DNA from: Eriocheir sinensis
Lineage: Eukaryota; Arthropoda; Malacostraca; Decapoda; Varunidae
Direction of reading: 5' to 3'
NCBI RefSeq assembly: GCF_024679095.1
Contig: NC_066520.1
Span: 17,121,831 to 17,185,830, forward strand
DNA length: 64,000 bases
In this document: piece after piece, positions 25,630 to 33,893 of the stretch
How the letters are laid out: every line of letters starts with the position of its first letter
How positions within the stretch are numbered: the first letter of the stretch is position 1
Translations under genes and position numbers: made by a program
The notes under the pieces: model-generated
Seen by the model: only the letters and a program-made list of their open reading frames with translations
The model's database searches: none
What the model was told of the DNA's origin: nothing

Positions 25630-25675
25630 ATGATATCAAGGGTCTACCTTTCTATCTTTCTACTATTTCTTAAAG
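25630..25675 (+). CDS. Exon 1: signal peptide
   Basis: This exon encodes residues 1-15 and the first base of codon 16. The start is fixed by an in-frame TAG three codons upstream (25621-25623). A short basic n-region is followed by a hydrophobic core (VYLSIFLLFL), and cleavage is plausible just before C19. The donor is AAAG|GTAAG, phase 1. Confidence 0.8.
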
Positions 25676-26193
25676 GTAAGTATATGTGCCGTTAAAAAGT
25701 ACCTCATTCACCATGTTCACATCTAAAAAACGTCAGTCACTACAAGCTCAATATTACTTTGTTTCGACTCACCATCATCAGTCACCATGAATCAATAACA
25801 CAGGAGGGGCGTGTCGCGAGGTTCCTTTGGTGAAGTTCGAAGGAGACGGTCAAGTGGCTACCCAGACAAGACTGGACACCGGCCTCGTCACCCTCCCCGC
25901 CATGACGCAGGTGAGGCCTCATGAAGCTCAAAGGTAAAGCCACGAAGTCCAAGGATAGGTAACGCTTAGGTATTCTAGATTGATAGTTCAGAAGCAGCAT
26001 GCACGTAGTTTACTCATACTATCTGCATCACCAACTGGTATGAGTGAACTATCCTCTCAACAGTCTGTCCCCTTCCGCTGGCCACTTCCCTGACCATCCC
26101 TAAGGCTCACCTCTATTGTCCATTCCCGATACCCATTTGTCTCCGGATCGTCCCCCTCCCCACCACTAAGCTTCCTCCAGATTGTTCTCATCC

Positions 26194-26249
<56 letters not shown>

Positions 26250-31631: not shown

Positions 31632-31695
<64 letters not shown>

Positions 31696-33893
31696 TGAAT
31701 TTCGGTTTTTATTCCGCCCTCCGTACTGGGCCTTCGCGTTCGGGCCAGTAAAATAAAACGTTCGCCTCTCACGTGGTAGTTCCGGAGCCTAAGTAAGTGT
31801 TATCGCAAAAACGTTCCCAGAGAAAAGAAACGTTAGTCCGCCCTGCCTGTCGCCCCGCTAATGTTCGTGTTTTGTTCGTGTGCTATATGGAAGAGTTGCA
31901 CAGCTTTTTCTTTTTACGTTTTCTTTATTAAGTTAGCCCAGCGAGCCTTGCAAAGTAGCCGTCGCATAAGTTCTTTGTGGAAAGCCGGGGAGGGAAAAGC
32001 AAGAGGATGAAAAAGAAGAAAAGTAAAAGAAGTGGAAATGGAAGTAAATTTAGTAGTAGTGGGAATAGTTGTAGGGGAAGAAAAATTCAAAACCAGAATA
32101 ATAAGAAAAAGGAAACCAGGGAGGAAAAAAAGGAACCATGAGGATGAAAAAAAAGAAAAAGAAAGAAAGTGGAAGTACAAGTAAATTTAGTTGAATCAGT
32201 AGTAATTGTAGAGGAAGAAAAATTCAGAACCAGAAGAATAAGAAAACAAAATCAGGGAAGAAAAAAAGGAACCATGCGGATAAAACAGAAGAAAAGAAAA
32301 TAATAAAAAATATACGTAAATTTAATGATGGAGGTAACAGTAGGAGGAAGAAAAAATAAAGCAAAAGAGTATGAAAAATAATAGTAAGTAAAATAAAGCA
32401 CAATAGACTTCAAGACATTCTGAATAAAATACCTTAAAATCTTATATAACAGAAGAGTCGTCATCGATTGCTCAATACCACATCATAAGATAGAATGGAA
32501 AAAATGTCGTTACTATTTGCGGGTTTGGTCCCACATACAACCATAACTGCTCTTCGCTAATTTTCACTTTCCTAAAATCTTCTTAGCTTTCTCCTTCTTA
32601 CATCTATATCTGCTTTCCTTTCTTTTTACTTTTCTACGCACTTTCTACCCTTCTCTTCCTCAAACTATCACTGCTTTTTACTCTTTTTAACTTTTCTAAG
32701 CTTCTCCTAGTCTTTCTCCTCCTCACAACCTCGCTTTCCATTCTTATTCTCTTTTTCCTGAGCTCTTTCTTCCTCCTCAACACATCCGTCGCACCGTAAT
32801 CTTTCCCTTATTTTCACTTTTCTACGCTCTTTCTAGCCTTCTCTTCCTCAAACCATCACTGCTTTTTACTCTTTTTAACTTTTCTAAGCTTCTCCTAGTC
32901 TTTCTCCTCCTCACAACCTCGCTTTCCACTCTTATTCTCTTTTTTCTACGCTCCTTCTTCCTCCTCAATGCATCCGTCCCTTCTTTTCAATTTTTAACGC
33001 TCTTTTTAGCCTTCTCTTCCTCAAACTATCACTGCTTTTTACTCTTTTTAACTTTTCTAAGCTTCTCCTAGTCTTTCTCCTCCTCACCACCTCGCTTTCC
33101 ACTCTTATTCTCTTTTTCCTGAGCTCTTTCTTCCTCCTCAACACATCCGTCGCACCGTAATCTTTCCCTTATTTTCACTTTTCTACGCTCTTTCTGGCCT
33201 TCTCTTCCTCAAACCATCACTGCTTTTTACCCTTTTTAACTTTTCTAAGCTTCTCCTAGTCTTTCTCCTCCTCACAACCTCGCTTTCCACTCTTATTCTC
33301 TTTTTTCTACGCTCCTTCTTCCTCCTCAATGCATCCGCCCCTTCTTTTCAATTTTCAACGCTCTTTCTAGCCTTTTCCTCCTCAAACCATCACTGCTTTT
33401 TACCCTTTTTAACTTTTCTAAGCTTCTCCTAGTCTTTCTCCTCCTCACAACCTCGCTTTCCACTCTTATTCTCTTTTTTCTACGCTCTTCCTTCCTCCTC
33501 AACGCCTCCGTCGCACCGTAATCCCTTCACCGACGTTTTCTCTCCTCGCCTCAGGACCGCATCATGGTGGCGCTCACAACAATGCTCGTGCTGGCCGCCT
33601 TCTTCACCCAGACCAGCAACACCATTCCCAAGACCTCGTACCTGAAGCTGGTGGACGTGTGGTACCTGGTATTGATCTGCCAGGTGTTCGCCATCATCGT
33701 GTCCTTAGTCTACGTCGAGAACCTCCGCCTCCGCCTCTATCATAAGGTGCACGTCACTTTCCACCAAACAAATCTGACAATCCACCTCAGCTCCCAGAAG
33801 GCAAATCGCTTCTGCCTGGTTTTCTATTCCTTCGTTACTGTCACTATTCTGGTTATTTTCGTCAGCGTGGGGGTGACTGCCACGGCCTGGTGA
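25630..33893 (+). CDS. Pentraxin / C-type lectin-like / LDLa / Cys-loop ligand-gated ion channel subunit (10 exons, 864 aa)
   Basis: Joined exons: 25630-25675, 25804-25910, 26426-26522, 26631-26791, 26916-27884, 28035-28524, 28803-28966, 29651-29755, 30327-30443, 33555-33893. Every intron is GT..AG and the frame stays open to TGA. Domains in order: signal peptide 1-18; pentraxin about 19-208; C-type-lectin-like about 244-370; unassigned two-Cys module about 384-456; LDLa 468-502; channel ligand-binding domain about 515-720 with Cys loop C646-C660; M1 about 724-745, M2 about 754-774, M3 about 784-806, M4 about 837-862. Usual Cys-loop subunits are about 450-550 residues, so the excess is the N-terminal extension. 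Eight N-x-S/T sites (N100, 194, 234, 312, 371, 457, 532, 698) all lie on the predicted extracellular side. Expected role: a subunit of a pentameric channel in the plasma membrane. Ligand and ion are unknown. I recall crustacean database proteins joining LDLa to Cys-loop channels, but could not check this. Confidence 0.9.
25804..25910 (+). CDS. Exon 2: start of pentraxin domain
   Basis: The acceptor ACACAG|GA and donor CAG|GTGAGG keep the frame (phase 1 in, phase 0 out), giving residues 16-51. C19 and the strand-like segment after it open a pentraxin/LamG-type jelly roll. The 128-bp intron before it is unremarkable. Confidence 0.82.
26196..26391. repeat. Compound (CA)n(CAGA)n(CA)n in intron 2
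   Basis: CA at both ends with a CACAGA/GACAGA core. It fills much of intron 2 of the channel gene. Confidence 0.96.
26426..26522 (+). CDS. Exon 3: pentraxin domain, continued
   Basis: The acceptor CCTCAG|CT and donor ATTG|GTAAGC bound residues 52-83. The segment LTVCLHFYL matches the early pentraxin strand that carries a cysteine, followed by a glycine-rich turn (FGGGNDNE). Intron 2 upstream carries a 195-bp CA-rich microsatellite. Confidence 0.82.
26631..26791 (+). CDS. Exon 4: pentraxin signature region
   Basis: Residues 84-137. HRWYHFCLSL contains H118-x-C120-x-S122, close to the pentraxin signature H-x-C-x-[ST]-W but with Leu in place of the Trp. N100 sits in an N-G-S sequon. The acceptor is TCCTCAG|AT and the donor CAG|GTAAAA, phase 0 out. 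Confidence 0.83.
26916..27884 (+). CDS. Exon 5: pentraxin end, C-type-lectin-like domain, two-Cys module
   Basis: 969 bases, phase 0 at both ends, encoding residues 138-460. It opens with the calcium-site region of pentraxins (G167-Q-E-L-D-S) and the closing strand FKGEIADF, ending at C208. The lectin-like domain follows: C267, the WIG motif (W306), C343, W355-I-N-N, C360 and C367/C370. The sugar-specifying EPN/QPD triplet is not visible and WND is WIN, so classical calcium-dependent sugar binding is doubtful. A last stretch between C384 and C456 matches no fold I know. An exon this long, holding one and a half known domains without introns, contrasts with the short exons around it. Confidence 0.88.
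28035..28524 (+). CDS. Exon 6: LDLa repeat and first half of ligand-binding domain
   Basis: Residues 461-623 plus one base. All six LDLa cysteines are present (468, 475, 480, 487, 493, 502) with the calcium-binding acidic pattern CDxxxDCPDESDE. A linker leads into the channel ligand-binding domain, marked by the family signature W-x-D-x-R-L (W556-Q-D-S-R-L) and LWKPVL near residue 581. The acceptor is TTTCCAG|GG and the donor GAGA|GTAAGT, phase 1. Confidence 0.9.
28803..28966 (+). CDS. Exon 7: Cys loop
   Basis: Residues 624-678. It holds the defining Cys loop, CNLNLVYYPFDTQLC (C646-C660), with exactly 13 residues between the cysteines and the conserved Y-P-F-D core. The acceptor is CCCCACAG|CC and the donor CAG|GTAATC, phase 0 out. 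Confidence 0.93.
29030..29165 (-). repeat. Dispersed repeat family R, copy 2 (in intron 7)
   Basis: Inverted copy: GTTCATGGCACAGAGGAAGG, CCACCAGGGCCATTC, CCATGGATATGCCC, TACGAAAGCATTGCC. It is truncated relative to copies 1 and 4 and lies inside intron 7 of the channel gene. Confidence 0.75.
29651..29755 (+). CDS. Exon 8: end of ligand-binding domain (loop C region)
   Basis: 105 bases, phase 0 on both sides, encoding residues 679-713. This is the loop C region, but it lacks the aromatic residues that form the transmitter box in classical receptors, so the ligand cannot be read from it. N698 is in an N-E-S sequon. The acceptor is TCTTGCAG|GA and the donor CAG|GTAAGT. Confidence 0.8.
30327..30443 (+). 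CDS. Exon 9: pre-M1 and M1
   Basis: 117 bases, phase 0 on both sides, encoding residues 714-752. The arginine-rich pre-M1 RNLARYYI leads into M1 with the family proline (FVPS, P732). The acceptor is CTTCCTCAG|GT and the donor ACG|GTCAGT. Intron 9, 3.1 kb long, follows. Confidence 0.9.
30535..30785 (+). repeat. Tandem duplication, period about 123 bp
   Basis: GGTGATGCTAAATA and AACTGGTAGATAG each occur twice, about 123 bp apart, at the start of intron 9. Confidence 0.7.
30785..31295 (+). repeat. Tandem repeat, period about 132 bp
   Basis: GACAGCTAGCATCGTCCC with TTAATATCCATCCATTGAGA recurs at about 31,009 and 31,141, with a third, more diverged copy ending near 31,290. Older degenerate copies lie between 30,785 and 30,910. 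Confidence 0.8.
31990..32370 (+). repeat. Purine-rich tandem repeat, period about 137 bp
   Basis: AGGAACCATG recurs at 32131 and 32268 (137 bp), within units that share GAAGAAAAATTCA and GTAAATTTAGT. There are about 2.7 diverged copies in intron 9. Confidence 0.8.
32560..33530 (+). repeat. Pyrimidine-rich higher-order satellite in intron 9
   Basis: The core AAGCTTCTCCTAGTC starts at 32698, 32886, 33059, 33247 and 33420. The spacings 188, 173, 188, 173 show a 361-bp dimer made of two monomer types that differ by a 15-bp segment. The last unit merges into the polypyrimidine tract of the exon 10 acceptor. Confidence 0.88.
33555..33893 (+). CDS. Exon 10: M2, M3, short cytoplasmic loop, M4, stop
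   Basis: Residues 753-864 and TGA. M2 begins D753-R754 (-1', 0') and carries T6', T7' and the gate leucine L9' (L763). The extracellular M2-M3 linker SNTIPKTSYLKLVDVW has the family proline and aspartate. The M3-M4 loop is only about 30 residues, short for the family. M4 ends at the C terminus. The Pro-Ala-Arg motif of anion channels is absent before M2. Confidence 0.92.
   Translation, partial: DRIMVALTTMLVLAAFFTQTSNTIPKTSYLKLVDVWYLVLICQVFAIIVSLVYVENLRLRLYHKVHVTFHQTNLTIHLSSQKANRFCLVFYSFVTVTILVIFVSVGVTATAW

Follow-up and report, generated by a model that had tools for sequence, protein, structure and literature searches.

A decapod family of predicted Cys-loop channel subunits with a stacked pentraxin, lectin-like and LDLa ectodomain, described from a gene of Eriocheir sinensis

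In a 64,000-nucleotide stretch of the genome of the crab Eriocheir sinensis (contig NC_066520.1, positions 17,121,831 to 17,185,830; the whole stretch is called the window below), we found a predicted ten-exon gene at window positions 25,630-33,893 on the + strand, whose spliced product of 864 amino acids (aa) has the features of a Cys-loop ion-channel subunit with several recognition-type domains stacked ahead of its ligand-binding domain. Sequence comparison gives good support to the assignment of this gene to a multigene family of decapods. We propose, at somewhat less than even confidence, that the product is a subunit of what is likely a cation channel and that a surface ligand, predicted to bind the ectodomain, would open or tune this channel; a classical amino-acid transmitter is probably not the agonist.

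Results

When the whole 864-aa protein was run against Pfam, five families exceeded their curated cut-offs: Pentaxin (aa 45-206, 6.7e-15), Lectin_C (aa 257-363, 7.4e-6), Ldl_recept_a (aa 467-502, 2.6e-8), Neur_chan_LBD (aa 509-679, 6.5e-16) and Neur_chan_memb (aa 729-814, 5e-8). A sequence-only reading of the window had named these same five families, pentraxin and lectin among them, and, of the motifs on which it relied, H-x-C-x-S, GQELDS, six LDLa cysteines and a 13-residue Cys loop were located in the protein; the profiles, homologues and predicted structures support its description of a Cys-loop channel subunit carrying a stacked lectin-like ectodomain. The ten exons, which it had joined in frame to 864 residues, were re-derived from the raw window as the same model in a single frame, with all 9 introns GT-AG; the splicing is a prediction that draws on open reading frames, splice-site sequences and homologous proteins. 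The parts of the gene are as follows.

Exon 1, 25630..25675, + strand: start codon and predicted signal peptide (aa 1-16, a hydrophobic stretch judged by eye); donor GTAAGT.
Exon 2, 25804..25910, + strand: beginning of the pentraxin region; tblastn match to homologue P0002.
Exon 3, 26426..26522, + strand: pentraxin, with the DNE calcium-ligand motif at aa 78-80.
Exon 4, 26631..26791, + strand: pentraxin, with H-x-C-x-S at aa 118-122.
Exon 5, 26916..27884, + strand: this exon alone holds the pentraxin end (GQELDS, aa 167-172), the C-type-lectin-like domain and the unassigned module.
C-type-lectin-like domain within exon 5, 27240..27629, + strand: aa 246-375.
Unassigned beta-rich module within exon 5, 27630..27872, + strand: aa ~376-456; invariant Cys/Trp columns, modelled strands, no Pfam family.
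Exon 6, 28035..28524, + strand: LDLa (aa 467-502, 28053-28160), followed in the same exon by the beginning of the ligand-binding domain.
Exon 7, 28803..28966, + strand: ligand-binding domain, with the Cys-loop C646/C660 and 13 residues between.
Exon 8, 29651..29755, + strand: end of the ligand-binding domain, without loop-C cysteines.
Exon 9, 30327..30443, + strand: M1 and the M1-M2 linker.
Exon 10, 33555..33893, + strand: M2 (acidic -1' residue D753), M3, short loop, M4 and TGA stop.

Searching the window with tblastn gave a single copy of the gene, with its exons collinear on the + strand, and tandem paralogs within the window were rejected. In an alignment, homologous proteins are continuous over the exon junctions; the stretch of exon 8 is missing there from P0003, and parts of exons 5 and 6 from P0002, gaps that we read as faulty public gene models. 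Two introns contain repeats: a long CA-type microsatellite in intron 2 (26196-26390), ending ~35 bases 5' of exon 3, and a pyrimidine-rich tandem array in intron 9 (32616-33523; 361-base unit, 2.5 copies, 95% matches), ending ~30 bases 5' of exon 10.

Three rounds of protein searching yielded 38 distinct proteins, with 18 from the first, 8 new ones among the 9 of the second and 12 from the third; 33 of the 38 carry an organism name, in every case that of a decapod: Penaeus 10, Homarus 7, Scylla 3, Palaemon 3, Panulirus 3, Macrobrachium 2, Portunus 2, and Procambarus, Cherax and Petrolisthes 1 each. Homologues thus occur in 10 named decapod genera. No non-decapod member was found among the 38, in a search by shared short words whose third round scored only the candidates sharing most, so that absence elsewhere does not follow. 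One of the other five proteins, P0027, matches through LDLa repeats and was excluded from family membership. By listed or computed Pfam matches, 7 of the 10 named genera have single proteins that combine pentraxin, LDLa and ligand-binding domain (Scylla, Homarus, Penaeus, Palaemon, Panulirus, Macrobrachium and Portunus). Single proteins of other decapods therefore span both halves of the gene (exons 1-5 and 6-10), as expected if these form one gene; one such protein, P0004 (Scylla olivacea), probably derives from the testis transcriptome assembly GDRN reported for that species (PMC5279790), a source inferred from the species rather than the accession.

Identity, motif and domain counts were taken from an 18-row alignment that sets the 864-aa protein beside 17 of the 18 first-search proteins, with P0015 and P0020-P0039 left out. 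At E<=0.01, Pfam recognised the ligand-binding domain and LDLa in 18/18 rows, pentraxin and the membrane domain in 17/18 each, and Lectin_C in 10/18. A tree of 26 channel-core rows (no outgroup; fragments, P0001, P0005 and P0027 left out) pairs the 864-aa protein with a Scylla paramamosain protein (support 100/100), with Homarus and Panulirus proteins next (98/96). Two clades, each at 100/100, mix Penaeus (Dendrobranchiata) with Homarus (Pleocyemata): P0028, P0016 and P0030 in one, P0017, P0019 and P0018 in the other. Because each clade contains both genera, the family probably consisted of several genes before the decapod suborders split and would be about as old as the suborders; the program warned of long branches joining the two clades, and this argument uses the contents of the clades, not their joining.

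Several members have peculiarities of their own. P0015 (Palaemon carinicauda, 1481 aa) has the same architecture with ~600 extra N-terminal residues ahead of the pentraxin, either a gene-model fusion or a real extension, and P0023 (Penaeus vannamei, 978 aa) has an HTH_23 match (9.2e-10) in that position, perhaps a transposon piece in the gene model. Each of the pairs P0003 and P0005 (Homarus) and P0010 and P0011 (Panulirus) lies on equally sized contigs, which suggests clustered paralogs. Public names vary within the family, from glutamate-gated chloride channel-like to neuronal pentraxin-2-like and uncharacterized.

Among solved structures, the pentraxin region is best matched by the SAP-like pentraxin 3flp from Limulus (8.5e-11), with C-reactive protein second. 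The DNE and GQE-D...Q residues of the 864-aa protein align with C-reactive protein, at positions that are presumably its calcium ligands; the four main pentraxin calcium ligands are present, and they are intact in 5 of the 15 family rows that cover them, this protein included. The pentraxin signature is H-x-C-x-S/T-W-x-S, and here the H-x-C-x-S at aa 118-122 is followed by Leu, not Trp. LDLa has its six cysteines (468-502 in the 864-aa protein) and an acidic calcium motif in 18/18 rows. Calcium binding by the pentraxin and LDLa domains is thus likely in the 864-aa protein, as judged from its residues, and it is not expected family-wide. A C-type lectin-like fold was recovered by fold comparison from the predicted structure of exon 5 (residues 109-238). 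The WND sugar motif is absent from the 864-aa protein and from all 18 rows, and an EPN/QPD-like motif is absent from the protein and from 16/18 rows, being present in 2/18. The fold comparison was taken up by the lectin-like domain and hardly covered the adjoining module (aa ~376-456), which shows invariant Cys and Trp columns in the alignment and beta strands in the predicted model. This region, described earlier as an unknown module, was run against Pfam at E<=10 in four members: three drew no match, and the fourth drew a single match at chance level (0.17).

In the channel part, the Cys-loop cysteines C646 and C660 are invariant in 18/18 rows, and the predicted structure of homologue P0020 contains the membrane helices and a Cys-loop channel fold. 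By sequence and predicted fold, the closest channel cores are those of glycine, GABA-A and glutamate-gated chloride channels. The PAR motif was not found before M2: the 864-aa protein has TDR in its place, and none of the 33 sequences with a pore region has Pro at -2' (40 sequences were scanned; 7 stop before the pore or lack it). The -1' residue is Asp in 28 and Glu in 1, and thus acidic in 29/33, with Asn in 3 and Thr in 1. In a beetle survey, PAR marks anion channels and is absent from the cation-forming GRD and LCCH3 (PMC2064938). The lack of PAR together with the acidic -1' residue makes a cation pore likely. At the agonist site, the position of the loop-D Arg of the glycine receptor is Tyr in the 864-aa protein, with Arg in 0/17 rows and Lys in 3/17; the loop-C cysteine pair is missing, there being no cysteine between C660 and C741 of the protein. 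With both features gone, a classical amino-acid transmitter is unlikely as agonist, and the pore and pocket residues taken together favour a non-classical one.

Mean pairwise identity is 30% in the lectin-like domain, 32% in the pentraxin and 38% in both the module and the ligand-binding domain, and it reaches 56% in LDLa and 58% across transmembrane segments 1-3 (TM1-3); the region of the loop and M4 is lowest, at 19%. The 9' Leu is present in all 17 rows that have the region. This pattern would fit varied recognition atop a constant pore.

Elsewhere in the window, at 49242-50099 on the + strand, lie fragments of a non-long-terminal-repeat-type reverse transcriptase with broken frames (RVT_1 1.2e-6 and 3.8e-5, both either just short of the curated cut-off or below it).

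Discussion

We propose that the channel works as follows. Five subunits would assemble, as they do elsewhere in the superfamily; calcium would be bound by the pentraxin and LDLa domains, and a surface bearing glycans, lipids or microbes by the lectin-type domains. Such binding would move the stalk and the ligand-binding domain, movement of the latter would open a depolarising cation pore, and the protein would thereby act as an ionotropic recognition receptor on a sensory, epithelial or blood cell. Gating or anchoring by a surface ligand, which the sequence-only reading had already raised, remains what we infer. Several observations weigh against this proposal. With its site intact in so few members, calcium binding by the pentraxin is not a feature of the family as a whole; with sugar motifs so scarce, the lectin-like domain is unlikely to bind sugars in the classical way; four of the 33 pores have Asn or Thr instead of an acidic -1' residue; variability is not limited to the lectin-type domains, since the ligand-binding domain also varies; and LDLa, as the most conserved of the outer domains, may have a structural role.

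The first alternative is a transmitter-gated synaptic or neuronal receptor, in which the lectin-type ectodomain merely serves to anchor or cluster the channel. Vertebrate secreted neuronal pentraxins cluster glutamate receptors, the solved structures that match the pentraxin region include neuronal pentraxins 1 and 2 (1.3e-5 and 1.2e-6), and the channel part belongs to the glycine/GABA/glutamate-receptor type. However, it lacks the loop-D Arg and the loop-C cysteines that mark such receptors, and one relative (P0004) probably comes from testis; the words pentraxin and lectin are absent from the main text of a crab/lobster nervous-system transcriptome paper, which is weak evidence. We consider this alternative unlikely, if worth keeping in view.

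A second alternative, to which we assign a similarly low probability, is a non-neuronal channel gated through its ligand-binding domain by a small ion or molecule, as with the Insect group 1 subunits of Drosophila, with the outer domains giving passive adhesion or protection and a pore that may pass anions. Insects have non-neuronal members of the superfamily, and both the degenerate classical pocket and the minority of members without an acidic -1' residue would fit; the text of the Insect group 1 paper gives no pore motif for comparison. Against an anion pore stand the universal lack of PAR and the prevalence of acidic residues at -1'.

Also rather unlikely, in our estimation, is a stronger form of the surface-ligand proposal, a fast ionotropic pattern-recognition receptor in which a calcium-dependent ring of five pentraxin domains would be coaxial and symmetry-matched with the five-fold pore, so that multivalent binding to a surface, whether of microbes, food or self, would open the cation channel directly. 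A cell would in that case convert surface recognition to voltage within milliseconds.

We find it improbable that the protein is an auxiliary, non-conducting subunit or an adhesion protein, pairing with other channel subunits or shedding its ectodomain. The M3-M4 loop of the 864-aa protein is very short and the region of the loop and M4 is the least conserved, as might be expected of such a protein, but the Cys-loop and M1-M3 are strongly conserved, and so is the 9' Leu. Finally, although the ten-exon model comes from genomic sequence and homology, a gene-model artefact merging two adjacent genes is almost certainly not the explanation and was rejected, because exon 6 by itself carries both LDLa and the first part of the ligand-binding domain, and single homologous proteins in most of the named genera cover both halves.

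Among the literature matches listed, no paper described the pentraxin/lectin/LDLa-channel architecture in its title or abstract. The main text of a chemosensory paper on four decapods contains none of the terms Cys-loop, pentraxin, nicotinic, ligand-gated or chloride channel; a spiny-lobster chemoreceptor study sought an expanded nicotinic family and found none, and its section on this names no family of the chimeric kind.

Glycine, GABA-A and glutamate-gated chloride channels have the nearest channel cores, but unlike the crab protein they have the PAR pore motif and an intact transmitter pocket and are without outer recognition domains. The SAP-like pentraxin 3flp, C-reactive protein and the neuronal pentraxins share with the 864-aa protein a pentraxin domain with calcium-ligand motifs, whereas known pentraxins are secreted or membrane-tethered and include no channel. 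Octopus chemotactile receptors are likewise an expanded Cys-loop family, responding to non-transmitter ligands, but they are nicotinic-type and lack added recognition domains. Another close system is that of the American lobster, whose genome paper (Polinski et al. 2021) reportedly announced in its abstract a novel class of chimeric receptors coupling pattern recognition and neurotransmitter binding. Those receptors, in another species and from another gene, are said to combine pattern-recognition domains with a neurotransmitter-receptor channel, a description that would suit the crab architecture, and seven Homarus proteins fall in the same family as the 864-aa protein; if the class is as reported, the ten-exon gene is a crab member of it. 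The class itself would then already have been announced, and the present analysis adds to it a pore predicted to pass cations, the lack of the transmitter pocket, this member's calcium sites and a likely age for the family. The bacterial channel DeCLIC is also pentameric and calcium-sensitive, with added beta-rich N-terminal domains that can influence gating, but these are two jelly-roll lobes rather than the pentraxin, lectin-like and LDLa domains of the crab protein (PMC9897478). That 2022 PNAS paper states that extra N-terminal domains had not been observed in any eukaryotic pentameric channel (PMC9897478). The decapod family, with several recognition domains per subunit in two decapod suborders, is an exception to that statement, and if the ectodomain does gate the pore, lectin-type recognition would feed straight into membrane voltage, and the family would be a candidate class of receptors for chemosensation or immunity.

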